From Membranipora membranacea (lineage: Eukaryota > Bryozoa > Gymnolaemata > Cheilostomatida > Membraniporidae): 64,000 bases of DNA. Of the stretch, positions 59 to 64,000 are shown one piece after another. Position 1 is the stretch's first letter. Each line of letters starts with the position of its first letter. The notes under the pieces are model-generated. The model had not been told where the DNA came from. It made no database searches and saw nothing but the letters and a program-made list of their open reading frames with translations. The DNA is taken from assembly GCA_914767715.1 (NCBI GenBank), contig OU612065.1, forward strand, positions 29,202,001 to 29,266,000. The letters run 5' to 3'. Both the position numbers and the translations under genes were made by a program.

Positions 59-254
59 GGCTATCATTATGTTGGTAACCCTGATACATTGCTATAATAC
101 GCCATAGCGAGGCCCCCCTGAATTGTTGCTATATGTCATAGTGTAGGCAACCCTGAAATAATTTATTGCTATATGTCACAGTAAGGCCACCCTGAATTTG
201 GTATATGTCACAGTGAGGCCACCCTGATAAGATATATTGCTATATGACAGTGTT
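59..254. repeat. Degenerate tandem repeat, unit about 33-40 bp
   Basis: About five imperfect copies of a unit built on TTGCTATATGTCACAGTGAGG followed by CCACCCTGAA. Copies differ in length and by point changes. It sits in the intron just upstream of the first convertase exon seen here. No coding signal was found in bases 1-374. Confidence 0.7.
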
Positions 255-374
255 TCTTTAACGATGCCAATGCCAATATACATTAATAGTCATGGCTGAC
301 TCTAAAATTTCAACTCTCTTTGCATTGCGAACATGCGACTTTTGTGTTAACATGGCAATTTCCAATAATTGCAG

Positions 375-7333: not shown

Positions 7334-7734
7334 GAGCAGATTCAGATTGAGTGAAGACAAAGAAATCATCAGTGCGTTCTCAGCTCTGGTTGAAATAGGG
7401 TATCTAAGCTGCAGTGTGAGAAGCAGTAATTTCTTTATTATTATCTGATACTGATCTGGTCTAACTCATGCTACCCATTTGTCACCTTGCGCCCTCATCC
7501 TCCCTCAATCCCCCCTGCTCTCTGACATACTTTTCTTCACAGATGACAAGAGATATGCCTGTAATTCATTGCATGCCTCAAATATTTATATTTTCTTAAC
7601 ATAAAGCATTATCTCAGGGCCATATTTTTAGATTCAATATCAGATTAACACATTTTGTATACCTTACATGAGAGAACACAACTCCGAGTAGTGAATAGCG
7701 GCTATCTAATTAGCGCCATCGACCCATTCTTTTT
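7334..7734. other. Convertase 3' flank, probable 3' UTR
   Basis: AT-rich sequence after the stop codon with no further open frame of note. The poly(A) site was not determined. Confidence 0.5.
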
Positions 7735-7890
7735 TGGGGATGGTGAGATGGCGCAATCGGTTAGCGCGCTTGCTATTCACTGCCAGGCGATTAGTGCCGC
7801 AGGAGTTGTGGGTCCGAGTCCCACTGGAGGAGCTTTCATTGTTGATTGTTCCAGCCCCCAGCACCCACAGGTGTATACCTCTCCTTAACA
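7735..7890 (+). mobile_element. tRNA-derived SINE
   Basis: Contains an A-box-like GAGATGGCGCAATCGGTTAG at about 7745 and a B-box-like GTGGGTCCGAGTCCCAC at about 7809, spaced as in a tRNA with a long insert, followed by a non-tRNA body. The 3' limit is approximate. A 16-bp piece similar to the head is present on the minus strand near 63826-63846. Confidence 0.7.
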
Positions 7891-11410: not shown

Positions 11411-12575
11411 AGGCGTATCTGAGGCTAATAGGACTATGGCTTTTTCCTATGACCCTACCCAAGGCTCTCTCATATCATCTTAGGACACTCTGCTAGCCTA
11501 GTAGCACTCCAAGCAGCATGCTATGATTTAGGTTATAACACATCTCACTACAGCTTGTGAAAGCCCAGTGGCCGAGTGTCCCAGTAGCTAAGACTTTTTC
11601 TCTTGGTCACTGGACTGCTTTTAGTATGAATCCATGATAGTCTGAATTCACAAAACTTAAATATCTCCATGATTTGAAGCACAAGTTTGCGGTAATTTTA
11701 AATATAGAACTTTCTCAAAGCAGATGGAGGTTAGAAAATGGATCCTGTCATGGGCTGCTTGTTGATCACTGTGAAGAATTTTATCATATCAATCAATTTG
11801 TTGGTTACTCAGTCTCATTTGGTTGTGAAGATCAGAGATTTGGCGAGAAATTTCACAAAAGATACCTGTCCAACGCCGGAGTATGCACCATGTAAATCTG
11901 AAAGCTCTTAAGATTTTGTTAATGGGAGTCATTAAATAACCTCGCAAGTGTGGCTGCATTTAGCCTACACTATATAATCAGTTAAAGAGGTGGAGGGCTA
12001 GTCACCAGTTCCCAGACCTGAGTCTTTTGATTGTGCAAACTTGAGATTTGGAGAATTTGTGATGTGAGACCATCCTCATTTGAGCGCAGGCTCATCACCC
12101 TTTGACATTTTGATCTCAAAAACCGCCAGTCAATTACAATAGAAAACCTCAGTGAAATTAGTACGATGATCAGGTTTTACAGGGTAGATGTGTTTATCCC
12201 AGTTTTCTGAGATTTTGGGCCCAGTTTGATTTGTTATTGAGAAGTTTTTAGTTTATATTTGATAATCCCGCATTAAAAATGATGCTCAATGCAAGCAAGA
12301 TTTAAGCACCTGACATGCGGAAAGGTGATCGTTATGTCATCTTTGGTGCTAACAATCTATTTTTACTAAACTACATATTTTATGCATACTTTCACTACTA
12401 TTTATTACCCATTTATATTTGAATATTTATTATATTTGTTTCCATATTACTCATATTTGTAATCATAATCTACATAGTCAAAATAGGGTAAGATAGACTT
12501 CTGATAGGAATATGACCATGAATGTGTATGATATGGTTGTATACATCCTGCTAACTTCCCTTTCCTCTTCAACAG
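11411..12575. other. Intergenic or SPT2 upstream region
   Basis: No convincing exon. An acceptor-like tract (CCTTTCCTCTTCAACAG, ending 12575) directly precedes the SPT2 start exon, so a non-coding 5' UTR exon of SPT2 probably lies somewhere in this stretch. Confidence 0.45.
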
Positions 12576-12596
12576 GTGAAGAATAAAACTGCAGCC

Positions 12597-15500: not shown

Positions 15501-18196
15501 AAGCTGATCTGATGGACTGTCTCGCCTTCAAGTTCTGTTTCTGGGCTCATGCCATTAAAGATTCGCTTCCAATATTAGATATATACTCATGTACAGATGA
15601 CGTACAGGCATGCTCACTCAAAATTTATCATGAATGACATGGTTTTCATTTCACCCTTTACAATTATTTTTCAGAACCAATAGAGAACAAACCGTCAAAG
15701 GTATACGACAACTCTGGTGGAGTGTCCGCCTGGGATAGACTTATGGGAAATTCAAACAAAGCAAAAGGTAAGAACCATAGAACCGTAGAACCGCATGGTC
15801 TAGTTTATTTAAAGTTTTGGTGGCATGTTGATGAAATATTCAGTGGAGTGACAAATTGTTATTCAACAAAGTATTGGGTTTTTAAGTGTCAACCTTTCAA
15901 ATTAAGGCAGTACATAATCAAAATTCCCACTCTTCAAAGTAACTTAAATGACATAACTTTCTTTTTGTCAACCTCATCAAAATAGTTCAAACCTAGCAGC
16001 AGGAATTGTCACCTGTCATCTGGACAAACATATTATATTTGCCATCGGTGTCCATGTTCTATTAATATGCTTTTGTCGGAAAGTGGAAAAATTCCGGTGC
16101 CTCACAAATGGCAATATTCAACATATCTGAGAGACACGATTTTGTCCGATGTCACAAGGTTATTTGACATTGGCACAGTATTGGCAGTTATGTTTCAATC
16201 AAAAGTAGGCCAAACCATTGTTCTAATCAGAAAACCCAGGAGCACCCAAAAACTTTAACTCTTTTATTTTTCCCCATTATGCATGCAATGGCAATAATAC
16301 TAAATAATGCATTCGTGTGTAAAACAGTTCATAAGTTCACCTAAAAACCTAGAGTCTGGTAAGTAACGAGGACAGGGTCTACCATGTCATGCTCATTGGA
16401 TTTGAGGCTCTAAGGCTTCCAGTTTGCTGGATGCTATAGCCCGATGGCCATTGGGTATCAGCAAAGCACCCAACACTGAAAAAAGACAATTTATAGTATA
16501 TATAAAATATCCTGTAGTGCATTAATAGTGTCAATATCCGCACTGCGACTCTGTGATACGAGTCTCTCTGCACCGTAGCAACAATGCCACAAACTGGCCC
16601 AATTGACCTGTTTAAATTTTGCCCATGTAAGCTAACTTTTTCCCAGTGCTGGTGGGATGACTTTTCTTTTTTGAGAACTCAAGCAAATTTGAATTAATTC
16701 AGTCGCTTCGGTGCAAAGATAACCAACCTGGATTAATGCAAAGTGGTCAGCATTTGTATTTATCGTCTGTTCACAGACAGTAAAGCTAAGAAGAAGAGAC
16801 AATCTCGATATATAGACAGCGATGAGGAGGATGAGGATCTAGATGACTTTATTGATGACGGAGAAGATGATATAGATTACTCTGCTGCTATTAGAGATAT
16901 ATTTGGTTATGATAAGTCCAGGTATAATACATTTTATATATAATATTTAACATAAATATATTTTTTATATGTGGTGTTGATTTGCCATGGTTTATTATCT
17001 AGAAGTACTCCTAGATATAATGTAGGAGGAGGTCGCATCTAGGGGGCTTTCTAAAATCATGAGCGGTGCATGATTGCTCATGAGACCTCAGTGAATTACT
17101 GATCATGTAGTTATAAAACCAGGAGTACATTTTTGGGTCATTATAAGTAATCTAAAAAATGTTTTACACAATGTGGTCTGAAGCAATATCACTCATATCA
17201 GAACTTGCTCGCTTGCCAAAATGATTTTGAAAAATTTCTTACTCAGATTTTATTGACAACTTTATCGATAAAATGATGTGATACATTCAGCGTTCAAGCC
17301 AATAAACTACCTTTATTTACATGTGTTCATCAGATACAGAGACGAAGATTTTGATGACAGATCTATGGTGGCAGGATTTGCTGACATCATGAAAGAAGAA
17401 GTGAGAAGGTAAGTTTATACAGAGTGGCAGCTCTGAGTGAGGGTATCGATTAATAATATACAAATATCTATTATTGACTGCATACTCTACTATAGAAAAA
17501 GGATTATTTTAAGACTATGTCATGTAAAACAGGACACACATCCCTCCTCGTTTCTGGTAAAAGCATTAAATTATCATCCACCGTTTGTCAAAAGATGGCC
17601 ACAACCAGCAAATCCGGCAAGGTTCAAGCAGTTAAAATGATTGCAAAGGAATCATGTTACAGTTACAAAACATCAGATAATACATCGAAATTGTGGATTG
17701 CGTCGTACACTCATTCAACTTTCAATCATTTGCACCTGATTTGTGCTGCTCTTCAAATTTTTAAAAGACGCATTGACTTCAACTTTAGCAGAGTCTATCA
17801 TTCAGACTCGTTCTCTTCCTTCAGATTGTTTCATTTTCGTTAATGGCAGTTATCCCAGGCTGTCTCCCCCCCCCACCACTCATCCCCCCGACAGCCTGCC
17901 CAGGCTAACCAGTGCACATTTTCTTTACTTTGTTGTCATCCACAATACCCTCCTATTGAAAGTCATCACCCATGTATTATCAAAGATTATAATGCATTGG
18001 TATTAAAAGCCATCTGTGTGGTTCCTCTAGGTAGCCAATACTCTGGATTCACTGACATAAAATTAAAAGTTTTGATCCTTGAATTTTGTTTCGTTTTTTT
18101 AGTGCCAGGTTGGGCCGAGAAGAAGATCTCCGCGACATGGCGCTCGAGGAGATGGAGAAAAAGAGGAAACTTATGAGAAAGAAAACAAAAAAGTAA
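12597..18196 (+). CDS. SPTY2D1: SPT2 chromatin protein (histone H3-H4 chaperone)
   Basis: Eight exons join in frame: 12597-12656, 13007-13207, 13818-14532, 14980-15159, 15675-15767, 16777-16921, 17334-17408, 18103-18196 (TAA at 18194), 520 residues. The N-terminus MDFLSIMEAARDNKDKAK fits SPT2 starts. The middle is long, Lys/Ser-rich and likely disordered, with a coiled-coil-like KKRLEEEKKRLEEAKRR stretch. The C-terminus is the diagnostic SPT2 domain: an acidic run ending DDFIDDGEDD, then IRDIFGYDKSRYRDEDFDDR, then a basic helix (LGREEDLRDMALEEMEKKRK). In yeast and animals this domain binds H3-H4 and supports chromatin integrity during transcription in the nucleus. The start was chosen as the first ATG after a strong acceptor at 12575, with family-like N-terminal residues. 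The protein is shorter than the human one but domain-complete. Confidence 0.92.
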
Positions 18197-19069: not shown

Positions 19070-22000
19070 ATGAGTCAACATAACAGAAGAAATATATTGA
19101 CACCTTTTTCCAGACATGAATTCTACGATAACACATATCTCCAAAGACTTCGCAACGACATTCAGCGCTTGGATAAATCTGCTAGTTCTGCGAATCGTAG
19201 TCATGTGAAAGGGATTGCTGCAACACAGACAGTAGCCCATGGATCACCCAGAACTCCGCACCTAATTGCAGGTAACTCTAAGACTATTGGATCATATACT
19301 CCACACCCGCCCTACACACAGGGTGGAAGACCTTCATCTAACAGGTCAATTATAGTCCGTTCTCACAATCATCCGTCTCCAAATCGTCCTACAAGGTCAC
19401 AAAATAGAGGGTCTCACGACGTGCAGTCACAAGGCGTTAGGGTACAACATCAAGTACCTGTCGGGCTAAATATACACAAGCATGACATGTCGCCTAGCCG
19501 TCTACCTGTCACACCTAACATACATCAGCGTGACAGATCACCTAGCCGAGTACCTGTCACACCACTTATACACCAACATGACAGATCACCTAGCCGAGTA
19601 CCTGTCACGCCACTTATACATCAGCGTGACAGGTCACCTAGCCGTGTACCTGTCACACCACTTATACATCAGCGTGACAGGTCACCTAGCCGAGTACCTG
19701 TCACACCACTTATACACCAACATGACAGATCACCTAGCCGTGTGCCAGCAACTCCAAATATTCACCAACACCAAATGGAAAGGTAAGACAGAACATGAAT
19801 TTACAATTATATCTGAATTTTTCACAGGCGGTTTGTATTGAGACCCATACGGCAGCAATATCATGATCTTGATTTAAACAGAGAAAGGCATCATTGTGAA
19901 TTTTTCCATTGCATGGACATCAGATATGATTTATGAATGATGATTCTCGCATAAAATATTGGCAAACAAAGTTGAAAAATGTGTGTGCCTTGCTAACAAT
20001 TGTATTGAACCCAGTATATTCCCATACACTAGAAATTCCTCTTAAATATTGCCTATAGAGCCTGTCTACCAGGTACATGAGTTATCTGTTGTTCGGGGTT
20101 AGGAGCGGCATTTGTGATCAATCTGGGGATGCATTACGTGCCATACCTAAGGTCTTCTTATTGTTTTTGTTTTCCTGAATTCATGGTCTGATAGCGATTG
20201 ATTTCTTTGATGATGAGTGTTTTGTATTGTTTTTGTGTAATAATGCTGAGCAAACAGCTACAAATTGCTCCCATTATTGAAATAATTCAACTGTAAACAT
20301 TACAAATTACATTATAATAAAGCATTCTGTCAAAAAAGTCTAATTACCGGGATGGCGTGTGGCTTTTTACGCTATTTTTAAACCTAATTATCAAGAAGTT
20401 AATGGAATCCCTTTGTTCTCATTCCTATCTTATAGAAATCATTTATGGATCTAATTGACTTCCTTTATTTTGCAGAAAATCTGAAGGACCTGGAAACCCA
20501 AAGAATTCTACATCAGATCAACAAATTACGTAAGAATCAGTAGAATCAGTACGAAATGGACTAATTTTCTAATTACTCCGGTCTGTTGTATTGATTGACT
20601 GTGTCATCAAATAACAATAGATTCTACCTCTAGATCTTCATAATCAATTTTAATTACAAAGTGTTGCATTCTGCAGGAAATTATTAAAATTCCTCAGCTT
20701 TAGTTAAGCGCGTGCAAACAAAATTGAGCGTTTGTTGACTCGGCGCACATTTGACAAAAATGCCTGGCTCACGTTCTCCATATGTTATGTATCTTATTTA
20801 TTGTTCATGCAGCTTCATCTGTTATTTGTACTCTTTTTATTAGCAGTGTGATGCTGTTACCCCAAATCTCTAAACAGCCGACTGGTGCCGTCCGTGGAAA
20901 GACATTATCTAGAGAGAAATCAAATTTGGCACTAAAAGCCTCTTTGCAAAAGAGGATACCTTTTCCTAAAATTGGGATGAGCGAGCTGCCATCTTTGACT
21001 GTGACTAAGAAACCTGTTACTCCTCAAACGCCAGGTTACTCGACTCGAGCTGGTGCCCCTGAGGGACATTTAAGTCGTAAAGATCAGTATCTATACGGAC
21101 TAGCCACCACCTATCAACGAGATCAAACTGTCATGACAGAAATAATTCGTCAACACCAGGTTGGCTATGATCGTTTAGTGGTCAGCCCTAGTAATCTTAG
21201 TGTCTACAGCGCCAGATCAATCGCAGACTCAATCCACTCAATGGAGGATATGGCAGCTCTGACTATCACTGGTGAGAAGCTGACACCCCATGGCTCCCCA
21301 ATGGCGAGTCCAAGAGTTAGTCCTCGAGCAAGCCCTCGTAACTCACCACACAGGATAAGTCCTGCACACTCTCCGCAAAGAATAAGTCCAGCTCAATCTG
21401 TACAAAATCTAAACTTTTATCCCCAGCAGACTGTAAACCCCTCCCTAACCGATCTAAGGATAAATCCAGCGCATCCAGTACATTGTGTCAGTCCAGCTCA
21501 TACTTCCAACATCAGTCCAGCTCATTCTCCTATCCGCAACATGCCACCGTATATCATCCTGGCTGATGATCATGTCCATAATACTCAGCATATGCAGCCT
21601 CTGTATCGACCGTTCCCAAATCATCTCCAGAGGCGAGTATCTGATCTGTCTAATAATTCTCTAAACGATGATGTGTCTCTCAAAAACTTCCTATACCATC
21701 AACCGCATAACAGGCCGGTTGTTCCGCAGGCAACCCATATCAAATACAGAGTTAGTCCTGTTTACAATCCTCTAAGTGTCGCCGTTCCTCTGCATCCTAG
21801 GATTATGTCTAATGACAGATCAGTATCCAACCAGAGAGCAAGGCAAGGCGTCAGTCCAACCAGTATTGTATTTGAGAGCAGAATATCACCGTCTTTGAGC
21901 AGACAATCCACCAATGTTAGAGACATGGGAACTCAAACACCAAGGCAGAAAGATGCGCCATCTAAAAACAAACCAAACAAAACTAGCAACAAAATCCGAA

Positions 22001-22644
22001 AATCAAAGAAATACAACATTGAAGATCTTCGTGTGAAACAAGTGAGACATGTCAGCACAAGGATAGAATCTGAACCATCCTTTATGGTAGAAAGAGAACA
22101 GCCATTGCAGTTTAAGTCTGATGCTCTCAACTATCACGGAAAGTCAGGAGACGCATCAAAACAGGCCGTGATTGTCATGAAAACAACGACAACTGTACAC
22201 CCAAATAACATAGGTGATGGTAACTTTCCAGGTAATTACTCGAGAGAATCCACGATACATATCGACATCGCTTACGATTCTAGCAGTAGCAAACCAGTTG
22301 TGACAAGCTACACGTCAGCACAGACAGAACCTCAGACTCCAGCGGTCAAGGTACCGACACAGGCTCCTCTTATACCAGAGACAGAACGCAGACCAAGTAT
22401 CAGTGGTCCGATACCAGAGATCAGAATGATATGTGCCACACCTGACCAGCTGAACCCTGACTCACCTACCCGACCCTCAAGCCCTAAATCAGCTCCTCCA
22501 ACTACATCCACTCCTTCTCATGAAGCCTCGCCTGCAACAGATGTGGCTAGTCCTAGATCTGATACACAGGCACCACGGTCGGCGCCAAGCAAACAAACCA
22601 CTGTTAACACTACATCAAACCATGTATCAACAGTCGTAGCTTAG
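19070..22644 (+). CDS. Unrecognised Ser/Pro-rich repeat protein
   Basis: Three exons join in frame: 19070-19782, 20476-20529, 20847-22644 (TAG at 22642), about 854 residues. No known domain was recognised. The N-terminus (MSQHNRRNILTPFSRHEFYD) is followed by a short amphipathic stretch, a Ser/Pro/His-rich region, and six 16-residue repeats of the type DRSPSRVPVTPLIHQ(H/R) at 19484-19771. The last exon contains a possibly folded segment (around KDQYLYGLATTYQRDQTVM and IIRQHQVGYDRLVV), then repeated SPAHS/SPR motifs at 21290-21540 and a long Ser/Thr/Pro-rich tail. No signal peptide or membrane segment is seen. The many SP and TP sites suggest proline-directed phosphorylation, but that is inference. 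The intron phases (2 and 2) agree at both junctions. The true 5' end could lie further upstream. Confidence 0.75.
19484..19771 (+). repeat. 48-bp coding minisatellite, six units
   Basis: Six in-frame 48-bp units encode DRSPSRVPVTPLIHQ followed by H or R. The final residue runs R, H, R, R, H, H. Internal units are nearly identical at the DNA level, and the first and last are more diverged (MSPSRLPVTPN and RVPATPN). A weaker seventh unit precedes at about 19454. Confidence 0.9.
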
Positions 22645-37500: not shown

Positions 37501-40500
37501 GATGCTGAGGTAGAGCTGATTCTATGAGAATAGTTGATGCCGTTTGTGCAGGCATATTGTCAATATAGAGGATAAGAACCTGAGCCTCTAGTCTGTATGA
37601 TTAATATGCAACCTGATCACTTGGCTGTGAAGCAATAACTGTGTGCTTAATTGTCATTGTTGATTTATATAGTTGTCTGATGGTTGCCAAGTTTGGTTAC
37701 GTAATCATATGCATAGAGTATTACACCGCCTGACGATCATTATACCAAGATTATAAAAAGTCAATCTGATAAAAAAATCCCATGTCATTCAAATTGAGGG
37801 TATTATAGATGATGGATTGGTTAAAATATGTTAACGCAACCACAATCGCATCAATACCACATATATCTCATTAATAACGTTGACACTTTGACAACTTGAA
37901 TCTGGTATTTTTATTTGTATTTTTATGGCTTGATGTTTTGGTAATGACAAAGGACAAGATTTTACATATATCAGAATGCAGTTAGCATTTGTTACGTAAC
38001 ACCTAGCTAGCCCTTGGGTGATCATTCTTGTTATTGAGATAGTGTTTGCCCTCTGACAATGTCGATGTCGCCATTTGCTCTCAATATCATGAGCTCGTAT
38101 GCAAACTTTGGAGCCATTTACAATTGTTGAAAGAAGTGTATTTGCCATTGGTTTCCTATTTTTCAGTGAATTCACGAGTTCTGTTTTGTAAACGTGAGCG
38201 GTATTTGACATGTGTTGAACAACAAGAGTGGTGCTTATATCAGGCAATGGTCTGAAGTTCAACCATTATTGTGTGCATATCTTCACAGATGTCAATTTTC
38301 ATCGATTCTGTCTACCTCCTACCTCACAGTCCTTCCTCAATTGACATGTTTTGACCAAAATGATTGACTATTAGGAGACAATTTGGCGATTGTGACCGAC
38401 ATTTCTTATTTGATTTGAGAGTTCAGGCAGGTCAAGATGTGGCCTGTCTTGACGAGCTTTGTTCATGAGGGACCCCCCCCCCCCCACCAACCAAACAAAG
38501 CTTGTCAAGACAGGCAGGTCAAGAGGTGGATCTTATGTTTACCTGATTTCGTTTATTCTCCATGCGACTTCTCTCGTACAACTGCACATTACGTAAGACG
38601 ATTCCACAAAATGTCAGATACAGTGCAAACGTCTACAAGATCAACAACAGGAAAAGGTTACTGTTAGGTTATGGATAGCTAAAGATGGCTTGTTGTGCAA
38701 CAGATGGGTGGTCAGTAGATGACAACAAGAATTTGCTCGCTCATGAGTGTCACCCAATTAATGGCTGACAGTGTCCGTATATCTGGTCTAATAATAGAGA
38801 TGGATGGCTTCAAAATGGAAGACTTTTTGTCCTACAAACTTTCGGTATAAGTTAACTTTGTGCCAAATGTATTTGCTTCTGTTACGTCACCCCAGTACCA
38901 TTACAATCAAAATGCAAAGAATTTACCAATCGGGCCAAAAAAGTGTGCCAACTTGTAAGTGAAGCTTCCTCTTTTTTTAATTGAATTAAACTCACTTTAT
39001 GATATCACAGAGGAATCTGATCGCTTAGACTTACACCATACTAGTCTACAGGGCCGTAGTTTAAGAAAAATGGTAGGGGAGGGGGAATTACATGAGGGTG
39101 TGAGTGAAGTAACACCAGGTCGGGTATTGTAAGCTCCTCCTGTGTAGTCTTGGGTTAATCCCCAGCCTCCAAAGCATTTAAGTGATATAAATAGCATATG
39201 GAAGTCCAAAATGAACTGATTTTGACATGGAATATTCTAGCATTATTAGGCTATGCTATTGAGCATTCCAGGGGGACAGAGCGTCCCTGCCTCCCCTAGA
39301 ACTACGGGCCTGCTAGATGACACAATCGGGCAAAGAGGAGGAATTTTAAGAGAAAGTTCAGGAAGAGAATCTCAGAAATTCTGGCTCAAACTTACCACCA
39401 ATATTACTTAATGTTATGGAGGTGATGTCAAAGGTTAGAAACAGACCGCACTCATCTCTAAGGGCATACATGTCATAAAACTGTAAGACATTACATGATT
39501 ACCTGTTTTTTTTAGGTAGTCTCATCACTCTCCAATGTCATCCACTCCATCCGTTTTTTGCTGGTTGCTGCTGACAATGGGTCACTTCTACTGAGTTCAA
39601 CCCCTCCCCCTCCAAAAAGAATAGCTTGAGTTCTTAAGCTAATGCCTATTTTAAGGTTAATATATTCACCTGATGGTCTTTATCAGTAAAATCAGAAGAG
39701 TTATCTCCCTTGTTGATTGCCTGAGCTACTCCGATTATTCTGCCATCTGAGTGAGTAATAGGTAGACACATCACACTCTTAGTTCTATACCCTGTAATCT
39801 CGTCCACACTGCGATCGAACCTCTCATCCTAAAACGTGTGAACTATTTCTTCAAGGTCAAACCTGGACAATCTCTCACTGCGGATTTCACACTGTCATAT
39901 ATCATTTATAATAACTGGAATAGAGCATGGCATAGAAAGTTCTTACTTTTGATGAACTGCATTCTGCTTTGATGTGACGTACTATTTGATCAGCTTAGTG
40001 AATAAGTGAAAAGCATTACGCAACACCTTTAAATAGGATGACCTGTCAACATGATCACTTCCACTAATCGTGACAGGACTGTGTTACTGTCCCTGAACTC
40101 TTACAAGAGGCAACACTGTCTTGCAATATGACATTACAGCCGGATAAGATTACCAGTTGAAAAATCATTCTCTGATCTGACGTGCGTTGTATGATTTTAA
40201 ATATAAATACACATAATCAGTTAGTTGGCAAAAGCTGTGTTATTTTTCACAAATAAGAAATATTTGGAATACTTTGAGGCTGTAATTGTAAATATGGAAC
40301 GCAATAGCCAATTAAGCTGGATGCATGATCAGATTTTGTGCAGACCCATCGCTTTCTATTCAGTCAGGCATCAAATTTCTTCTAATGTTTAGTATGAAGA
40401 AAAAATCTTATGTTACTGAGTGTTCACAATTAACTCTCAACCTATGGAAAGGTAACTCCAAATTATTAGAATCAAAATCAATTGCAAAAGAGAGCAGTTT

Positions 40501-53486: not shown

Positions 53487-54380
53487 TTAGTTGCAGCATT
53501 GTCCTCCAGTTACAGAATAGCAGTGGTCATCATTGAACTGGTAGCCAGCTCTACATCTGCGTGGAGCGGGTGGGGAATACGGACAGCACCAGGGGTAACC
53601 GCTTCAATCTGGTATTAAATAAGTAGATTGGTAGCATCCATTGCCATTAGTGCCAGACTGCCAGGGACTACTAGCACTGACACCAAGCCGGTAACCACTA
53701 CGACAGATTTGCGCCGCTGAAATGAACAAAATAAGTTAAACTACATTTATAATATAGACAGCTGGGGCTGGTTTCAATTAGAGATTTAGCTGGCCTTTGC
53801 CGTGCTTTCACGGCTAAAAGTCAGCTAAAGCTCAGCCACCCACTAATTCGAGTTTCAATTCGCATAAATTTAGTACATAGCTGATGTTTAGCATTATCAT
53901 GGCAGTTCTGTTTCAGGCGGCTATCACTCAGCTAACATGCTATATCATATGTAATATATTAGTCTGAGCCCCCCACACGTGACTTGGAATATTTTTGAAA
54001 TACCACAACTTTAGTTTTACTCCTAAATCATAAGCTGACAATCAGAAAACTGATGAAAGCAGGATTGAGACAAACTATTGCCAATTTATGTATAATACTA
54101 ACATGTATTCTGGGCCAGCGCAGCGAAAGCAATCAGAGCCAACACAGCAATCCTGAAATGTATAAAATGAGAAGATAAATACAAAATTAAAAAACCATTA
54201 CAATATAATTATAATTAAAACATATTCTTGATGTCTTGATGTCTTGATGATGACAACAAGGGTGCCAGTATAACTGGATTCATTTTTGTTATTGAAACAA
54301 AATGCCAATTGTTTTCCGAAAAATAAGGAAAGGAAACGATGAATATCCTTCAGATGCCATAACAGTTACCAAAATTTCAT
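53487..54380 (-). pseudogene. Secreted Cys-rich precursor family, copy 1 (probable pseudogene)
   Basis: Exons 54380-54370, 54152-54103 and 53716-53487 follow the family pattern. The signal peptide (MKFWIAVLALIAFAALAQN) is intact and very close to copy 2. The Cys-rich exon has the usual first cysteine motif (CRSGY) and C-terminal motifs (CRAGYQF, C-x7-CC-N-stop), but an in-frame TGA at 53604-53606 interrupts it before the CC pair. The spacing to the second cysteine is stretched and the tetrabasic site is missing. The exon 2 donor (GTTAGT) and exon 1 donor (GTAACT) are weaker than in the other copies. It is most simply a decaying duplicate of copy 2. A sequencing error is the alternative. Confidence 0.7.
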
Positions 54381-56410
54381 TATGAACCTAGTTTTGTCGT
54401 TTCAATTTATTCAGATTGAACTCCAATGGTAATGTCTTGAGAGGCAGGGTAGTACGATTGACTTGTGACTTGGTCACGTCTCTTTTATATTCTTTTAGTT
54501 GCAATCAATTGGTTTCAATAGGGTGAGCTAAGCCGAGCTGATTGGTTGTTTGATCCATAAAAAAACACAAATCAGCTCGGCCTTAGTGTGAAGACTGACA
54601 CGCACTTTCCAGCGGTTCCCGAGCTGTTTTGATCGAAGAATTTTAGTGCGGGAGGCCAAAGTATAATTATCGTCTGTGGCAGTCTCTTTCGAAGTTGCAG
54701 CTTGATCTCTGTTCACTGGAACGGACGAAATTTCCCTTGGGAGAACCGAGAGTTGACAACAAAATCCACATGAGAACGTAATGAACAAAAACGAACAAGA
54801 AAGGGTCATGATGTTGGGTTGTTGCTTATATTGTTTTATTAGCCCCTGATCTTAACAGTTGATGGTCGGCTCTTCTCAGTACAAAATTGTATTTAATCAC
54901 TTAATGTAGACCCATGAATGTATAAATACTTATTTATACCTATTTATATGCTTATGTGTAGTCCAAACTGATCACTATAGTCCTTGATCAATAATCTTTC
55001 CTATCAGCCCTGTGGAGAATTATACAACACGTGATTCATACTAGATTACATTTGATTCAGTTCGTCTGCATTCCGGATTATTCTCCTCCACTGATATATC
55101 CACAGGCAATTTGCCTCAGGCTTATCAGTAAAGGGGAAGCAATTTTAAACAAAGGCAAACTGGATAAAACTTGATCTAGCTAGCTTCACATTCATTACTT
55201 CAAATAACCAATATCAATTTGACCGGTCAGAACCCAGAATTTAAATTTTCTTTTGCATCATGTGGTCATCAAGTTCAAATCATTGTAATAATAAGAATAG
55301 CGTGTACTATATGCGATGATCATTAGGGTTGTGTACTGTTACAGTCGGAGGTAGCCTTCCTTACAAAGATATTTTGGAAGTAGTTACGTATTTCAATGTT
55401 GACATTGACTTGGAATTAATTATAAGCTCTTTCCATCAACAAAATGGAGGTGTGGTGCATGTCAGCAGAATATTTCAAGAGGGTCATGTTAATGCCAGCG
55501 GCCTGCTTTTTGACAAAGAAGGTTGTCATATGACCAGCATACAATTTTTAACATCCTCGTCATGATAATGTCACAGAGTAAGGGTATATCCTTACTCTGT
55601 GATCATGTCAGTATGGAATTAAAAGTCAATCAATGTGGTGTTAGATATCTAATAATTTTGTTGTGACAGTGGAAGAGCCTGCACCAAGTTACTCATGTTG
55701 CATAGAATCGAATTCCAAAGAAAATGTAAGATGGAAAAATGCAAGCAATTAGATATATTGATATGAAAGTATAATGTTTGGCGAAGTAAGAAGAGAGGCT
55801 GCATCTTTCTTTGGATGCTGATTTTGTTTTGATTGAAGCTCAGGACTTTTATGGAACTAGAAGAGCCTGCACCAAGTTTTATTTTTCAAGCAATGGAAAA
55901 TAACTTTTTATAAGATTATCATGTTTGTAAATAAAAGGCTGGCATGGAATAAATTGTGATTGGAACACCGTTAAACTTACACCGCCTCATTCCTAGTGCT
56001 GATGTCAACACTTGCAGATGATCACGACAATCACCTTTATTTAGTCCAGAAGGAAATTAAAGTATGATTGGGATGTCAAACATTAATTTGTGTTCTTGTA
56101 TCGCAATCTAATACAATTTTGATATGATAAGCAAGATGATGAATTTTGCATTTATACACAAACTCTCTATTAAGGTTGCAATTCACTGACAGGTCTGTCT
56201 TCATATGAAACCTACCAGACTGCCTATGTTTGGTAATGACGCAAAGTTAATTCAGTCATCTGAAAGTATAGCTTCAGAGTAACAAAAAATCATTATAAAT
56301 TATTGGATTTATTTAATCACTGAAAGATTAATATTTTAAAATAAACATAAGTACAAACAAATGGATTTCAAATTGGTGGATGAAAGTTAAGTGTATCTGT
56401 CCGTATTCAA
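54381..56410. other. Upstream of copy 1, spacer
   Basis: Contains the TATA-like box of copy 1 (minus strand TATAAAAG, 54489-54482) in a block matching the copy 2 promoter. It also holds a 13-bp inverted repeat (AGCCGAGCTGATT arm) at about 54531-54583, a perfect hairpin at 55571-55602, and a direct repeat AGAGCCTGCACCAAGTT at about 55674 and 55862. No gene is called. Confidence 0.55.
55571..55602. repeat. Perfect 13-bp hairpin
   Basis: Arm TCACAGAGTAAGG, 6-nt loop, exact complement. Confidence 0.85.
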
Positions 56411-57377
56411 CTAGTTGCAGCACCATCCTCCATTTGCAGAGTAGCAGTGGCCATCACTGAACTGATAGCCGGCTCTACATGTGGGTGGAGGAAGTGGGCA
56501 GCACCACATGCGCCCCTCATCTGGTACGATCGCACGCTTCCTCCTCATGAATATATCAGTCGCATAGCATCCTCTGCGAAATGTGCTCGACAAGCTGTAA
56601 CCACTACGACAGTATGCCGCTGAAATGAACAATATAATTATGATAAAACTAAATATAATCAAGCCAGCTGGAGCCCACCAATATATGAATGTAGAGATTT
56701 AGGTTGGCTGTTGGAATTTTTTTTAAATGAAGAAAAAGCACGAAACCAAAATCAAATTGAGGGTGAATATTGTTGGCTTATTTTTCTGGTTTTTATGTAA
56801 CATGTGCTTTGTAAATTTGCACAGTAATCTGGACGGAGTAAATGCTTTTCAAATATGTTGCATCTCTAGCCTTCTTCCAAAAGTGAGCTTAGAAAAATTT
56901 TCCCATTGCAGAAAACAAGATCATTTTAAATATTAGTAAAATACAACTACAAAGCTCATAACGGTCAATCAGTGAGACTATCATCAATAGGGAAAATATC
57001 GGACTATCTCATACATTTATTTATTAAAGCAAGGTTTTAAAGGACTAGATTTATGCATAAAAACTACCTGTATTCTGGGCCAGTGTGGTGAGAACAATCA
57101 GAGCCAACACAGCTATCCTGAAATGTATAAAAGTAAGAAGTTTAATACGAAGTTGGTAAATATGATAATGATCCACTTATAATAATCTGATGTGTGCGCT
57201 TAAATTGTGTCAGGATAGCTGGTAGTAGCATTGCATTATCAACCACTTTCCCAACCAGTGGTGGCGGTAAATATAGATGTAATTACATTGTCCATGAAAC
57301 AAATACCATTATATTGGAAAAAGGGAAAAGAAACAATGAATGTCCTTAAAATGTAGCAAAACTTACCAAATCTTCAT
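56411..57377 (-). CDS. Secreted Cys-rich precursor family, copy 2
   Basis: Exons 57377-57367 (11 nt), 57117-57068 (50 nt) and 56619-56411 give 89 residues. The signal peptide is MKIWIAVLALIVLTTLAQN. The first segment has C-x13-C (CRSGY ... GCYA), followed by a tetrabasic furin-type site MRRKR-A. The C-terminal part runs CC-x6-C-x10-C-x7-CC-N, eight cysteines in all. This predicts a secreted, disulfide-rich peptide cut in the late secretory pathway. I know no family with this pattern. The CC pairs and basic cleavage site recall processed peptide hormones, host-defence peptides or venom-type peptides, but nothing in the sequence decides among these. It shares promoter, signal peptide and flanks with copy 1. 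Confidence 0.8.
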
Positions 57378-58357
57378 GATGAAAAAAGTTTGTTGATTAG
57401 ATTCTTCACAGATTAGAATTCCAGCTAATGTCTTGAGCGCAGGGCAGTATGATTGATTTTTGACTTGGTCCTGCCTATTTTATATTCCTTCAGTTGCGCT
57501 TCAAAAGCGGTAAAACTGTAGTTGTTCGGGGCAGCCCACTCAAATAATAAGGTGCTTGATAATAACATGACTAGAAATTACTAGAAATGAACGAGGAAGG
57601 GGCGTGTTGTGATTTCCATTTGTTACATAATTTTTTTATGAGCCTCAGGTCCAAACAGTTTTTGGTCGACTCTTCCTCAGTGCCAACTGATCCACCTGCA
57701 GCCATCTTGTTTGTTTGAATTAATTCCCCTCCAGACTTTGCAGAAGAGGATTATTTGTCCGTCATTAAGTGCACTTGTTACATCATTCGGAATTTCCAAC
57801 GCCTCGTCAATTGTTGTTTACGACTCTAGGCAGACGGTTGAACCTGTAATCGGCTTCCTCGTTCATAATGCTGGGGGGGGGGGGATTGTAAGAACTGGTG
57901 ATACATTCACATCAGGCACCAGGTCGGAGAGATTTGTGATTTCTTTGTTCGTGGATACCTGTTACAGTTAGCTAATAGTGATGTTTAATCTGTGTAGGTT
58001 TTTATGCCTTCAGCGCTATGTGGTTTTGCAACGCTTCTTTTCTCACACAAAACAGCGGTTTTATATTTTGATGCTGTATTAGAGGGATGCATTCATTTTC
58101 AGGGTTCAAAATTAATGGTCTGTATAGTTTTGATAAGTGAAAGTCCATTACTTTGCTGTCGAGGCTCAGATTCAGAGTTGAGTTTTCATCCTTTATTCTT
58201 GAGTTCTCTATAGAACTCAGCACTGACATTGGATATATTGTGTTGATGCTTTTTGTTTATTTTGTTTTAGCTATTGTGATGAAAAAAGGCAATTTATAAT
58301 TACATGAAATTAGCATGTGTAGTACTAACATTTTGCAAAAAATTAATCGACTGTTTT
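57378..58357. other. Spacer between copies 2 and 3
   Basis: Holds the TATA-like box of copy 2 (57484-57477, minus) and a G11 run at about 57872. An 86-codon plus-strand open frame (57711-57971) has no recognisable content. Confidence 0.55.
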
Positions 58358-59053
58358 TTAAGTTCCATTTAATTGTTTAATATCATAAAAATTAAAAAAA
58401 TAGGGATGTGCCAAGTTGTGACGGTCATTTTTACACACGGTGGTGTGCAGCCATTGGTTTTGACATGTAGAGGCCCATAGGACCCTAGAAATAGCCTTGC
58501 AGACTTCAGTGTAGTGTTGTCCAGGACAGCAGAAGTGATCGTCCCCGACTTCACTAATAGTTAGTTCCTGTCCAGCGAGTGGGAGAAAGGTACAACCCGG
58601 AGCATAGGAAGTTGTAATTATGTTACCTCCTCCACAAGGTCTAGAAAAAGCTGAAGAAAATGGCTGATGTGAGATTTGCAGAAAAAGTTTACACTACAAT
58701 CCTGTATGTCTATTTTATGAAACATGTCCAAAAACAAAAATTTGGTTTTTATTGAAAAGTATATATATCGTAAGATGAGTAGAATTTGCAATATTGACAA
58801 CTCACCTAATCCATCACTTGCTGCTGCAAAGATGAGCAGGGCGGCTACTACAAATCTAAAATTGGAACAAATCAAAGTTGTTAATAAAAAAATATACAGC
58901 ATTTGATCAGCACAGTTAGTAAAGTTAGTAATGTTAATCAATTAGTTAGAGACTAACTTCTTGCACTGATTGAGCATCTCCGCATTTCAAGCCATGGTAA
59001 AGCAAACCAGGCTAATCAAAGACGATATAGGCGTAAACTTACAGAAATCTCAT
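58358..59053 (-). CDS. Secreted Cys-rich precursor family, copy 3 (diverged)
   Basis: Exons 59053-59043 (11 nt), 58855-58806 (50 nt) and 58650-58358 give 117 residues. The first two exons have exactly the lengths and phases of the other copies, and the signal peptide is MRFLFVVAALLIFAAASDG. The third exon keeps C-x13-C (CGGGNIITTSYAPGC) and a CC pair (HFCCPGQHY), then three spaced single cysteines. It lacks the basic cleavage site and the terminal CC, and it runs on into an AT-rich tail (ending QLNGT). Either it has diverged or its end is shifted in frame. The acceptor at 58651 (CATTTTCTTCAG) is strong and gives the right phase. Confidence 0.62.
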
Positions 59054-60151
59054 AATGATGGTTGCTCAGTTTATTTCTTCACTAGCTGTATTTATTCCAC
59101 CTTTGAATTGTTCTACTCTCCTCCAGATACTTGTCACCTGGTTGGTCACTCACCACCTTATATAGTCATTAAATGCAGACCTTTTCTACAGAAGCACAAT
59201 GCAGGCGGTTTACCGATAACAATCAAGCCTAGTCACTGGGAGGGTAATATTCTCCTATTCTTGAGGAAGTTTTGCAAGGTCTACAAAATTTGGACCTGAT
59301 ATTTACTCTACTCTAGGCAGATCTTTAGGTGTACGAAGCATAGGTGCATTGGTACCTTTTGCACTGAGAGGGGCTCGTATCATCCAACATATCAACCGAC
59401 TGTCGGTGAAATATGTGCTTCCTGATCAAAAACTGCAGAATCAGTTTTTTATTGCTTCACCTGCCTTTACTTCAAGTTGTCAATCAGCTTGTTTAAATTT
59501 GGTTCTATATGATTGGCATGTTTTCATCAAATTTTTGTAAGGGAAGACATTTTGCATAATGTTAAGTCACAGGTGGTGACTCTGCAATACCAGTAGTGTA
59601 CGGTTTGGCCTTGGTTCAAAGCTGGATTAATGTAGAGATGATATTTCTCTCTTTCTAAAAGCTCGCTGAGCACTTATATGTTCGGATCTAGCTGATCAAC
59701 TGAAAGAGCAAAGTATGACATTTGTGTCCATTTCATTAAATTGTTCACCAGCAAAAGCTGCAAGGTATATATTTCAATAGTGTCCAGGTCAAAGGCGCAG
59801 ACAAGAATCCCTCAGGATTAATGTTTTGTATTTGAATCAGCTTCTCATAATTACTATGGGGATGAAATCTGATAAGGATAATGGGGTAGCCTGCGATGTG
59901 AGAATCTAATTTCTGTTTATTTTTATGTTAATGACAAGATAGCTTCAGAAAAGAATGAATTGTATGTAATCATGAAAATGAAAATTGAACGAAATTAATT
60001 CAAAAAACATTTATTGATAGTTTCAGAAAAGAATGTATTGCATGCAATGATGAAAATGAAATTGAACAAAATTTGTCCACATAAAAACATGATTTGCAAT
60101 TTGTTGATGGAACCATTCAGCTGTGGTGTGATAGAGTCGCTCTGTGATCCA
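59054..60151. other. Spacer between copies 3 and 4
   Basis: Holds the TATA box of copy 3 (59164-59157, minus, TATATAAG). A short direct duplication built on CAGAAAAGAATG lies at about 59945-59998 and 60023-60075, next to the 3' end of copy 4. No gene was seen. Confidence 0.55.
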
Positions 60152-61023
60152 TTAGCAGCAGCACCACCCTCCAGTGACAGCGTAGCAGTTCTTATCACAG
60201 TGGAATGTGCTACTGTACCAGAAGCCGGCTCTACATCTGGGTGGGGGTGTGGTGGTGGAGATGGCCGGGCAGCACCAGCGGATCCTGAGAAGTCCTCCAT
60301 CAATGGGGAGAGCGCGCCTCTTTCTTGGTATTTCACCTGGACCGTAGATGTCTATGTCATCGGCAGCATAACAGCCAGTCCGATAGATTGAGGAATACGA
60401 ATATCCAGTACGGCAGCGCGCATCTGTAAATATAAGAGGTTTACTTTCTATATTGCAAAATCATATGTGATTGTGTATCATGAGGTCTCATTCAACATCA
60501 AAGTATAAGCATACAAGATAATATATTTTGATAGTGGTAATTTTGTGGTGATATCAGCGAGGATGATATGATAATGAAAGTTTGTCAAAAAGAGAATTTA
60601 TGCTCTCACAAAAAAAAGAGAAGACAATCACATATTATTTATCTGCAAAAATGTTGCAGCTGCACCAAAATACATCAAACAAGTACTTACTTGCACTGTG
60701 AGCCAGGACAAGGATGAGAACCAGAGATGAAGTCACAATCCTGTAACAGAAAATATTGACAAGATAAGATAACTATACTGACATGGAAACTGAAAATATA
60801 ATATATGTGTACCTGTTCAGAGTGCAAATTCTGTACCAATAATTAATAATAGCCAATGATCTGTAAAACTTGTAATATATTGCTTGCTATTGACCTTTCA
60901 ATGAGACGAGTAGTAGAATCTACTCTATATAAATGTGTTCTGAGCTGAAAAATCTGAATATGATATACTTTTTTGCATATTAAATGTTATGAGAAGAAAC
61001 CAGTTTACTTACCAAAAATTCAT
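60152..61023 (-). CDS. Secreted Cys-rich precursor family, copy 4
   Basis: Exons 61023-61013, 60740-60691 and 60423-60152 give 110 residues. The signal peptide is MNFWIVTSSLVLILVLAHS. It has C-x13-C (CRTGYSYSSIYRTGC), an acidic linker, a furin-type site PRKRR, then CC-x11-C-x11-C-x3-C-x7-CCC. This is the longest precursor with a cleavage site, and it has extra cysteines compared with copy 2. The second Cys-rich half keeps the RCRAG and GGW motifs of copy 2. The predicted role is the same: a secreted, proteolytically matured peptide of unknown activity. A 125-codon plus-strand frame over the same exon is a shadow. Confidence 0.8.
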
Positions 61024-62368
61024 GATGCAAGTAAGACAGAAGAGCAAAACTAAGTATTGATATCAGGCGCAGAGTAGTACGATCCGATGTGAGATGATCT
61101 GAAATGAGCTCACTTTTATTTCAAAATCTTGAAGGTTTAAGTCACATAATTATTTGTATGGATTTTTTTAGAGACACCAAAGGCGGTTCAAATTATAGCA
61201 GTTCATACTTAATTGTACATCTGATCAAGGAAACAGACAAGGAAACACTTAATTATGGTGCTCATTCAACAATAGCCTTGACTCCACCATGCACTTGAAC
61301 TTCCCTCCAAAACCTCTGGCTCTTCTTTTATCACAGGTTTTGCATTTTTAGGTTGTGACAGGGGCCAAAGTCTTGTATCAATTAGATGATGAGCCTCCCT
61401 TCTTTCTTGAGGGTGTAATTATAAAGGTTTTTTCAAGAGACACCATTGGCTGGTTCAAATTATAGCAGTAGATTCTTAATTATACCGCTGTTCAAGGAAA
61501 TAGACAAGGAAACATAAATTCTGTTGCTCATTTTTCAATAGCCTTGCTTCCATCTTGCACTTCAGATTCCCTTACACAAGAAGTCTTGCTCTTCTCTAAT
61601 TCCAAGTTTGGAATTTTTTGGATTGGATAGGGGCCACAGACTTTTTATTAATCACGGGTCTGACCCACAGTTAAGTGTGAACCACCCTCTCCACTCCCAT
61701 GAAATTGCTGAAAACTGATTATTATCAAATAATCACACGGTCTCCCATATGCAATTAACTTCCTTGTTTGACTTTTGAACGCAGACTATTCTTGCGAGAT
61801 ATGAAGAACAAATATCTTATATGATCATGGATGGTTACCGAGGAGGTGGAGGCAATTCATAGATTATGATTGGTGTTAGAGCTGAGCTATACTAGAAAAT
61901 TCAAAACTTTAACGACTTTTGCAAAATGGCATAGAAGTCATACATGCACAACTCCTTAAGTAGCACAATTTGCTTTAGAGTGAATTGCTATTAGCTGTAT
62001 ATTTTTAGAACTGAAAATGTATTTTTTTATTCTCCCTTTATAAATGTCTAATGGAAATTTATAAAATAGGCTTCCTATTAAAAAAATGCGCTGCATACAT
62101 GCTCAAATGAGGTTTGTTCGTGAAAACACACTGCATTTTAACATAAAAAGGCTTTCATCAAACTTTGATAAAGTAAAGTGGTAACAATTGAGGTTTCCAC
62201 CATTGAAGAATTATATTATTACTTTTGCTAACGGGTAAAATCGCTTTCTCAATGAGGAACAACAAATAAAAAAAATGGTCAGTCAAATTTATTTCTGTGA
62301 ATGATTTTATATGTTTGGAATCATTATATTTGTGTCATAAAAAGCAAAGCTTGTCATGTTTCATAGAA
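61024..62368. other. Spacer between copies 4 and 5 with a tandem duplication
   Basis: Holds a TATA-like box of copy 4 (61120-61113, minus, AATAAAAG). Two tandem, diverged copies of a unit of about 265 bp follow (about 61140-61400 and 61418-61680), both containing GAGACACCA and GGTTCAAATTATAGCAG. Confidence 0.6.
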
Positions 62369-63160
62369 TCAACAGCAGCACCATGCTCCAGCATGACGGT
62401 AGCAGTCATTCTCGTTCTTAATTGAAGTAAAGACGTAGTCAGGTTTGCAATAGCAGCAGTAGGCACTTGAACGCTTCCTTCTAACTGCAGGGCCGAAGCC
62501 TCCTCCCCCTCCTCCTCCTCCAATCAGATGGGTGACATCAGCACACAGGCTGTGTTCTTTGATGTAGCCAAACTCCTCACCACTCTTGCAATCTGTTCAA
62601 ATCAAAACAAAGTACTGTGTGAGATGTGTATACATTTGTTTTATCAGCTATTGTGCTGTTCAAACGAGCTAAGATTATAAATACTTGATTGATACGTTGA
62701 TTCAATTCGATAGAGGATGCACCTCCATCTCGTTGATAATCATTGCAACCAAGTCAAGAGTGCATACAATTTTTTGCCTGGATACAAGAATGAATGATAC
62801 TGGGTAACAATGACCCTATACACACAGAAAACTGTAATGCTTGGATTGTTTTAAGGATGATTAAAACTTACTGTATCCATAAGTCACTGCTACAAAGACA
62901 AGGAATGCCGCTGTTGTCAATCTACAAAACAGACGAGACCATCGAATAGAATACAAAACTGTACGGTATATATGAAGGCTGTACAGGTTTGGTGCCTCTA
63001 TTTCCTTGATCTGCAAATATGCCACACTGTGCATCAATGTAGAAATTGCATGCTGCGATCTAACCACATACCATTTGTATGTACGTTAACTTAAAACAGA
63101 TTGTTACCAAAGGAAAGTGAAAGTAAATAATTAAAATTAAACTGCTTACAGTATTCTCAT
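62369..63160 (-). CDS. Secreted Cys-rich precursor family, copy 5
   Basis: Exons 63160-63150, 62921-62872 and 62592-62369 give 94 residues. The signal peptide is MRILLTTAAFLVFVAVTYG. It has C-x14-C (CKSGEEFGYIKEHSLC), a run of eight glycines, a furin-type site VRRKR-S, then CC-x1-C-x14-C-x7-CCC ending GAWCCC and a stop. The oligoglycine linker before the cleavage site is unique to this copy. It is the first gene of the tandem array in transcription order. A TATA box (TATAAAT, 63296-63290 minus) lies about 130 bp upstream of the ATG. Confidence 0.8.
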
Positions 63161-64000
63161 GATGCCACCTGCTAAAGTCTGTCTCCAGATAGTTGACTCA
63201 AACTGTGAGAATTTGCTTTTAAAAATAATTTCTTGCAGCACTAGGGGACTGTATTTGACAACTGTGCGTTCCTAACTGTGTCTGCTGCCATTTATACTTG
63301 AAGTGTCAGGAAAGTGTCACATTTTTGTTGAATTTAATCCCAAGGAAAGCTCAAGGAAATCCCAAATGTAATTTTGATTGGAAAGCAAAAAGGAAAAACT
63401 CTCAGCAATATCATTTTTTGGCTGGACACCAAGACCCAAGATGGTACACCTAAATACCTTAATATGCTAATGAAGCTTATATGTGTCATTGAAAATATTT
63501 TCAGGCCGATTGTACGAAACTTGTATTGCAGCTGGTCTTGTTATATGTCCTCAATTCTACTTTAGTCATTGTTATTTCCTAAAGCCAAGTAATACTCTGG
63601 CCCAGCTCAACAAAGTACGAGATGGCAAAGCCAAAAAATGGAATTAGCACCACTTTTGAATTTTGAAAATCATTTCACATGTCTGTACAAAAAATCTAAC
63701 CAAAATTATAACTACAAATGGCTAAAAAAGACCTACAGGTAGCAAATGAGCATGTGTTTAATTTTTTGAAGTTGCTCCCTCTCTTGATCAGTAAGTTGAC
63801 ATATGGCTATTAAGCGATAACCGAGAGCGCCATCTCACCATTCCAGAGATGGTCAGCGCATGTTATCCATCGACAGGCACTTTCTGGGGAACTTTTGAGC
63901 ATTGGTGATTTATGAAGGTAGAAGTAATGTTACAGATCGAGTTTGGGGAAGCAAAAACATGATGATAAATGTCTGCGTACTTATGATTTAGTTTTTAAAG
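63161..64000. other. Upstream of copy 5, window end
   Basis: Promoter of copy 5, then AT-rich sequence with no exon recognised. A 16-bp piece of the tRNA-like SINE head (GCGCCATCTCACCATT) lies at about 63828. Confidence 0.5.

Follow-up and report, generated by a model that had tools for sequence, protein, structure and literature searches.

Positions 53487-63160 on the minus strand of chromosome 1 of Membranipora membranacea carry five loci of a family of Cys-rich, secreted-type precursors, as read directly from the sequence; they lie in a 64,000-nucleotide stretch that was analysed as a whole (the window). The family comprises at least nine loci, namely the five window copies, two further copies of the array (6 and 7) and single members on C2 and C11. 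Nine is a lower bound. The signature of the family is an internally repeated C..C..CC module. The reading placed first, still a tentative one, is that these are bryozoan secreted precursors of a four-Cys module, usually in tandem and in part predicted to be cut by a furin-like convertase, which most likely serve as defence peptides. It builds on the common exon structure, the hydrophobic start, the repeat and the furin-type sites of three array copies.

The features of the array, with copies numbered by plus-strand coordinate, are as follows.

53487..54380, minus strand: copy 1; exons 54380-54370, 54152-54103 and 53716-53487 (11, 50 and 230 nt, GT-AG)
53604..53606, minus strand: in-frame TGA within exon 3 of copy 1, lying in module 1 after the second Cys and before the WCC
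56411..57377, minus strand: copy 2; exons 57377-57367, 57117-57068 and 56619-56411; 89 aa, two modules, 8 Cys
58358..59053, minus strand: copy 3; exons 59053-59043, 58855-58806 and 58650-58358; 117 aa, same 11 and 50 nt exons
60152..61023, minus strand: copy 4; exons 61023-61013, 60740-60691 and 60423-60152; 110 aa, two modules, 10 Cys
62369..63160, minus strand: copy 5; exons 63160-63150, 62921-62872 and 62592-62369; 94 aa, two modules, 9 Cys
63291..63296, minus strand: TATA box (TATAAA) of copy 5, beginning 136 nt before its ATG
Starts near 54489, 57484 and 59164, minus strand: TATA boxes of copies 1, 2 and 3, resembling that of copy 5

Each window copy has a first coding exon of 11 nt, a second of 50 nt encoding the signal peptide and a third that is Cys-rich, with intron phases identical in 5/5 and GT/AG at all splice sites of these by-eye models. 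The exons were chosen with the pattern already known, and scans give possible alternative ATG partners for copies 1, 2, 3 and 4, leaving exon 1 provisional. In four of the five copies a TATA box begins 107-136 nt before the ATG (107 nt in copy 2); only an AATAAAA-type sequence takes its place upstream of copy 4. An A(A/T)TAAA signal is found 43-136 nt past the stop in all five, the poly(A) signal of copy 2 among them. Across the family, 9/9 by-eye models repeat the order of a short first coding exon, an exon for the signal peptide and a Cys-rich one, with phases 2 and 1. Exon 1 measures 11 nt in eight of them and 17 nt in C11, and exon 2 measures 50 nt in seven, 65 nt in copy 7 and 68 nt in C11. 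Eight of the nine models with this common build have open frames.

A preliminary description of this DNA had reported five genes of three exons on the minus strand. The five loci and their build are present in the sequence, on models drawn by eye, but only four of them are open, as copy 1 looks to be broken by the in-frame TGA. An extra intron that would keep copy 1 intact was rejected, the splice pair being weak by eye and the intron also deleting a Cys. The Cys spacings given in the same description proved right when recounted: C-x13/14-C in copies 2, 4 and 5, stretched to x22 in copy 1; C-x7-CC in copies 1, 2, 4 and 5; and a CC spacing running from CC-x1 (copy 5) to CC-x11 (copy 4). That the copies form a multi-copy family of Cys-rich secreted-type precursors also stands; their starts are signal-like.

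Between any two of copies 1, 2 and 4 the alignment score is reached by 0/2000 shuffles in which the Cys are fixed, and between copy 5 and copies 1, 2 and 4 by 23, 5 and 7 of 2000 respectively. The C2 member scores against copy 5 at a level reached by 0/2000. Copy 3 is divergent, with 7 Cys and one clear module (C-x13-C ... FCCP), and does not rise beyond such shuffles against the other window copies (183 to 1601 of 2000). Its link to the family runs through copies 6 and 7, which lie beyond the window (4/2000 shuffles against copy 6 and 2/5000 against copy 7), and it groups with these single-module copies.

Two modules are present in 6/9 members, counting copy 1 with its stop, and one clear module in copies 3, 6 and 7. 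The commonest form of the module is C-x2-G-[YFW]-x2-S-xn-C-Y-xn-G-[WY]-CC. When module 1 is compared with module 2 over the six two-module members pooled, the score is 1268 vs 825 +/- 36, and 0/500 Cys-fixed shuffles reach it. Tested member by member, the repeat is clear only in copy 2 (11/5000 shuffles) and copy 4 (0/5000); for copies 1, 5, C11 and C2 the score is reached by 524, 530, 599 and 232 of 5000. Of the 12 modules of these six members, 11 were aligned (all but module 1 of copy 1), and their Cys line up, partly since the pieces were cut at Cys. A hand count of the other residues over these 11 modules finds the G in 8, a Y/F/W behind it in 10, the Y that follows the second Cys in 9 and the W/Y ahead of the CC in 10.

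Three array copies contain a furin-type site of the form R-x-[KR]-R within module 1.

56534..56545, minus strand: RRKR of copy 2 (residues 46-49), within the long module-1 loop
60314..60325, minus strand: RKRR in module 1, copy 4
62471..62482, minus strand: RRKR in module 1, copy 5

The site occupies the same place in all three open two-module array copies and occurs in 0/6 of members 1, 3, 6, 7, C2 and C11, copy 1 being a two-module member with C-x22-C. As it is missing from the C2 and C11 members, cutting is not family-wide. In the proposed sequence of events, the signal peptide would be removed and the disulfides formed, and a furin-like convertase would then cut copies 2, 4 and 5 within the long loop of module 1. 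The predicted products are a cationic N-terminal chain of 29-41 aa with 2 Cys (charge +1.9 to +5.8 at pH 7, basic site included) and a second chain of 33-53 aa with 6-8 Cys. The C-terminal chains, at predicted charges of -1.2, +2.8 and -0.5, are not clearly cationic, which weakens a classical antimicrobial reading. The two chains could be freed separately or remain joined through the disulfides of module 1. A purely intramolecular disulfide scheme fits poorly because the Cys counts are odd in copy 3 (7), copy 5 (9) and the C11 member (9). The likeliest use would be as defence peptides secreted at the surface or gut. The locus would expand through tandem duplication, with copy 1 representing decay and copies 3, 6 and 7 the one-module forms.

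In the mature part, dN/dS by a counting method was 0.43, 0.18, 0.39, 0.23 and 0.50 in five of the ten possible pairs, with dS large (0.76-2.41). This amounts to purifying selection on average, and single diversifying sites are possible. The “diversifying use” suggested in the preliminary description is not borne out by these five pairs, all of which lie below 1 (0.18-0.50).

A peptide hormone or local signal is an unlikely alternative. The cut in module 1 would then, as in insulin and relaxin precursors, leave a ligand of two chains joined by disulfides, and the copies would be paralogous ligands. Cut sites inside the repeated Cys module of copies 2, 4 and 5, the small size and a dN/dS <1 agree with such a role, but the loop from the second Cys to the CC has just 21-32 residues, six members lack the site, and indels in the loops would be unusual for a ligand bound by a single receptor. 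A related and equally doubtful proposal is that gain of a furin-type site inside one of its two modules turned the duplicated four-Cys module into a two-chain ligand or effector. Such a system would perhaps be confined to bryozoans, and insulin-like processing would then have arisen independently in an unrelated fold, with the uncut C2 and C11 members as the older state.

Venom-like or feeding-deterrent toxins are rather improbable. A tandem array, a hydrophobic start and a Cys-rich mature chain are features that such peptides would share, and the CC-C-C-CC order of copy 2 superficially resembles that of conotoxin framework III. Against this, no toxin family was matched in Pfam or PDB sequences, and diversifying selection was not seen in the five pairs run. 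It is more improbable again that the peptides belong to the cuticle or the mineralised wall, as structural or matrix components whose odd Cys form cross-links. Bryozoan walls are calcified and the counts of 7, 9 and 9 (copies 3, 5 and C11) suit intermolecular bonds, but the peptides in these gene models are short, without long repeats or acidic runs, and the cut sites are left unexplained. That the loci are pseudogenes or splice-model artefacts, as the stop in copy 1 and the failure of copies 2-5 to match even themselves in 5.8 billion predicted proteins might suggest, is highly improbable given that 8/9 models of common exon build are open, dN/dS is <1 and the Cys and cut sites are kept.

The members were also compared with known families. 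No credible match was found in Pfam (7/9 members scanned) or PDB sequences, nor for copies 2, 3, 4 and 5 among the 5.8 billion predicted proteins, a set that may miss spliced proteins of ~90 aa through its gene calling. This agrees with the earlier statement that no family with this signature is known to its author, and the profile placing the copies in a well-described family, named there as one refuting result, did not appear in the libraries searched. Among the matches listed, literature on bryozoan Cys-rich or antimicrobial peptides included no such family, which is not proof of absence, and a text search with six peptide fragments gave, among the papers listed, nothing relevant by title or start of abstract.

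Big defensins (trans-defensins) of bivalves, amphioxus and horseshoe crab are described as precursors with a signal peptide, a dibasic or furin-like site before a six-Cys C-terminal part and a phase-1 intron (PMC7203481), and to this extent resemble the present family. The hairpin with a third strand in the weak models of module 2 would be a further likeness. However, their Cys order is C-C-C-C-CC as opposed to CC-C-C-CC in copy 2, and they have an N-terminal hydrophobic domain where the bryozoan family has a second Cys module. The comparable site is furin-type in 3/9 members, yet the part preceding it holds the two module-1 Cys. Membership of the beta- or big defensins was rejected, their six-Cys spacing, as a loose pattern, being present in 0/9 members; no Pfam defensin match was obtained in the seven scanned.

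SCRiPs (small Cys-rich proteins) share a signal peptide and a small precursor of 68-83 aa, with CCC near the C-terminus, and almost every member of the first set has a convertase site (PMC2652719, PMC10892658). They are described from Hexacorallia (stony corals and sea anemones), whereas this array is bryozoan. Their published spacing, Cx6-7Cx4-6CPx3-6Cx4-6Cx5-6CCC (PMC2652719), is found in 0/9 members and the host is not a hexacorallian, and SCRiP membership was rejected. Barrettides (hairpins with two disulfides in 31 residues) and stryphnines (knottins) are likewise animal-encoded, with a signal peptide and a small disulfide-rich core, but are sponge peptides from another phylum; for barrettides, a tandem module is not described in the available parts of the sources (PMC8713285, PMC13418204).

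The structure models, at pLDDT 51 and 63, are too weak for a comparison with the Cys1-5, Cys2-4, Cys3-6 pairing of beta- and big defensins. Module 2 is modelled weakly as a hairpin with a third short strand at the WCC (pLDDT 51 overall, rising to 73-76 for residues 21-40 of the C-terminal chain), and module 1 as hairpin strands only. The N-terminal hairpin of long-form C-type lectins has a spacing similar to the C-x10-C-Y of module 2 in copy 2. C-type-lectin-like chains made up 4 of the 20 weak matches from Foldseek (16-17 columns, 0.9-1.4 Angstrom rmsd); kinship with this hairpin was rejected, the structural matches being at chance level only.

Bryozoans are colonial animals exposed to fouling, microbes and predators. 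With its open, uncut and decayed copies, the array allows one to trace duplication of a Cys module, gain of a protease site and a one-module form. It also provides concrete test sequences in a species for which a chromosome-level genome and RNA-seq (ERR6464929) are reported as deposited (PMC10290214). Separate observations were made on the same genome. A sponge origin, at first considered partly for the depletion of CpG (observed/expected 0.50), was given up once Cys-loop receptor domains had yielded 146 matches, with 14 controls that had no signal and hence offer no yardstick, and the species had been identified. For a sea-anemone origin the GFP family gave no match, but nor did its control, which makes that result uninformative. 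Mitochondrial COX1 is compatible, as judged by eye, with AGR=Ser and AAA=Lys.

The five minus-strand loci named in the preliminary description are all present in the window.

54380-53487, minus strand: copy 1, gene model
57377-56411, minus strand: copy 2, gene model
59053-58358, minus strand: copy 3, gene model
61023-60152, minus strand: copy 4, gene model
63160-62369, minus strand: copy 5, gene model

The exons of these models were chosen by eye, with alternative ATG partners seen in scans for copies 1-4; as modelled, exon 1 contributes 11 nt and exon 2 contributes 50 nt of coding sequence in all five, with identical intron phases. This common build supports common descent of the copies, copy 3 included. 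The models have a hydrophobic start. TATA boxes flank four of the five loci and poly(A) signals all five. Searching the window for start exons of 11 nt with a hydrophobic 50-nt exon after them recovers four of the five copies, copy 2 falling narrowly under the cut with a value of 1.79. It also returns, at 34155 on the plus strand, one further candidate for a second exon. Exon 3 of copy 1 is interrupted in frame by a single TGA (53606-53604), which lies after the second Cys and before WCC, and is otherwise open. Copy 1 is probably broken, the one decayed copy of the array; the TGA may instead be a polymorphism or an assembly error.

The spacings C-x13/14-C and C-x7-CC(C/N), described earlier as the signature of the family, are real, and are explained as two copies of one four-cysteine module (C..C..CC). 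Its commonest form is C-x2-G-[YFW]-x2-S-xn-C-Y-xn-G-[WY]-CC. Two modules are found in copies 1, 2, 4 and 5 and in single genes on chromosomes C2 and C11, and one clear module in copy 3 and in copies 6 and 7 beyond the window. The four Cys are invariant in the 11 modules aligned from the 12 of the two-module members (all but module 1 of copy 1), an outcome owed in part to cutting the pieces at Cys. The G is kept in 8/11 and followed by Y, F or W in 10/11, while Y follows the second Cys in 9/11 and W or Y precedes CC in 10/11. When all first modules are pooled against all second modules, the score is 1268 versus 825 +/- 36 after shuffling the non-Cys letters of module 2, attained in 0/500 shuffles, a figure that does not amount to six independent tests because the members are related. 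Member by member, copy 4 (0/5000) and copy 2 (11/5000) show the repeat clearly, and copies 1 and 5 and the C11 and C2 members do not (524, 530, 599 and 232/5000, respectively).

The window is C1:29202001-29266000 in the genome of a cheilostome bryozoan. The genome searched comprises 339,339,785 bases in 18 contigs, about 35 kb and three scaffolds fewer than tzMemMemb1.1 as given in the cited part of its report (339,374,674 bases, 21 scaffolds; PMC10290214). A protein search with the Cys-rich exon of copy 4 at E up to 10 finds five places, namely copies 4, 2 and 1, C11 (E 0.0017) and C2 (E 0.49). The loci outside the window are as follows.

C1:29270395-29269066: copy 6, array continuation adjoining the window, its first exon the least certain
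C1:29273505-29271990: copy 7, array continuation adjoining the window
Chromosome C2: exons of 11, 50 and 242 nt, phases as in the array copies
Chromosome C11: exons of 17, 68 and 284 nt, phases as in the array copies

Against shuffles with the Cys fixed as chance control, the C2 and C11 members each match copies 2 and 4 at 0/2000, and copy 5 matches C2 at 0/2000 and C11 at 160/2000. At the level of sequence, build and similarity together confirm both places as family members. Between copies 6 and 7 the match stands at 0/2000, and their similarity to copies 2, 4 and 5 is not beyond shuffles (343 to 1297/2000). The mature part of copy 3 is likewise not similar beyond shuffles to the other window copies (183 to 1601/2000), nor, in a separate run, to copies 2, 4, 5 and C11 (147 to 1451/2000). 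It reaches 4/2000 with copy 6, 2/5000 with copy 7 and 54/2000 with the C2 member, which itself reaches 8/2000 and 6/2000 with copies 6 and 7. By this pattern copy 3 falls into a subfamily with a single module, tied to the rest via copies 6, 7 and C2. Further genome searches with the C2 member and copy 7 return no additional member, and the family has at least nine loci, the search scoring only its best candidates.

Lineage-restricted secreted disulfide-rich peptides in tandem arrays are common in animals. The module, its duplication and the putative convertase site inside one module lie outside the libraries searched. The family was initially described as unrecognised, and this holds for the databases compared. 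The Pfam scan of seven of the nine members (copies 2, 3, 4, 5, 7, C2 and C11) gives no significant match, the best one (E 0.078) scoring under the curated cut-off. Queried with copy 2 (6 candidates) and with copies 3, 4 and 5 aligned (151 candidates), a database of 5.8 billion proteins yields nothing at an E of 1 or less, though it contains a 99% match to a neighbouring exon. PDB sequence searches give no credible match, one returning 11-residue stretches of three coat-protein chains (E 1.5-1.8). A loose beta-defensin Cys spacing occurs in 0/9 members, as does the SCRiP spacing published in the cited part of PMC2652719.

The motif R-x-[KR]-R occurs once each in copies 2, 4 and 5, in every case within the long module-1 loop, and is absent from the other six of the nine members scanned. 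Cutting there would yield predicted N-terminal chains of 29, 37 and 41 residues with two Cys each, and C-terminal chains of 40, 53 and 33 residues with six, eight and seven Cys. The precursors would be secreted and cut by a convertase, with disulfides stabilising small sheets; whether the two chains stay linked after cutting depends on the disulfide pattern. A role of the peptides in surface or gut defence is a guess that takes big defensins as its model; their precursors likewise have, in the cited part of PMC7203481, a phase-1 intron and a dibasic site. The predicted C-terminal chains are not clearly cationic, which makes signalling a serious rival to defence.

The ‘diversifying’ use first proposed for these peptides finds no support in dN/dS, calculated for five of the ten window-copy pairs, drawn from copies 1, 2, 4 and 5. 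Mature-part values are 0.43 (1-2), 0.18 (2-4), 0.39 (1-4), 0.23 (2-5) and 0.50 (4-5), and are rough given dS of 0.76 to 2.41. The signal part (20 residues) gives 0.36 (1-2), 0.63 (2-4) and 0.88 (1-4), with dS saturated for pairs 2-5 and 4-5. The values speak against diversifying use and for average purifying selection on the mature part, with which single diversifying sites are compatible.

Other features of the window are listed below.

1-7330, plus strand: gene encoding Cys-rich furin-like repeats and, at the C-terminus, a transmembrane-like segment (24.6 bits to Pfam Furin-like, under the cut-off of 26.8; last exon sub-threshold to an unrelated family)
7649-7885, plus strand: short frame, which we take to resemble a tRNA-derived repeat
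12555-17409, plus strand: exons of a gene for a chromatin protein, SPT2 (SPTY2D1-like), with E 6.7e-07 to Pfam SPT2 at 16737-16940
20755-22644, plus strand: 629-codon open exon of an unrecognised gene, with seven unnamed database relatives at 35-99% identity
32000-45000, minus strand: putative phosphodiesterase gene, with a GAF-domain exon at 39649-39828 (E 8.5e-06)

Any connection between the furin-like-repeat gene and the array's furin-type sites is no more than an idea.

Elsewhere, two minus-strand open frames with knottin-like Cys patterns lie at C1:29333872, with a sub-threshold Conotoxin_I2 match (E 0.092), and at C1:29332937, with no family match. A minus-strand ShK-domain frame (E 3.5e-15) lies near C2:20446634, with the family member on C2 ~1-2 kb away. 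Ligand-binding domains of Cys-loop receptors give 146 matches on C1, C2, C4, C5, C6 and C11. Of these, 26 lie inside frames of 439-540 codons, often clustered and one with a stop within the match, so these receptor genes are apparently intronless. The mitochondrial contig spans 14,741 bases, the cited part of PMC10290214 giving 14.7 kb for the mitochondrial genome of M. membranacea, and its COX1 is by eye consistent with AGR = Ser and AAA = Lys.
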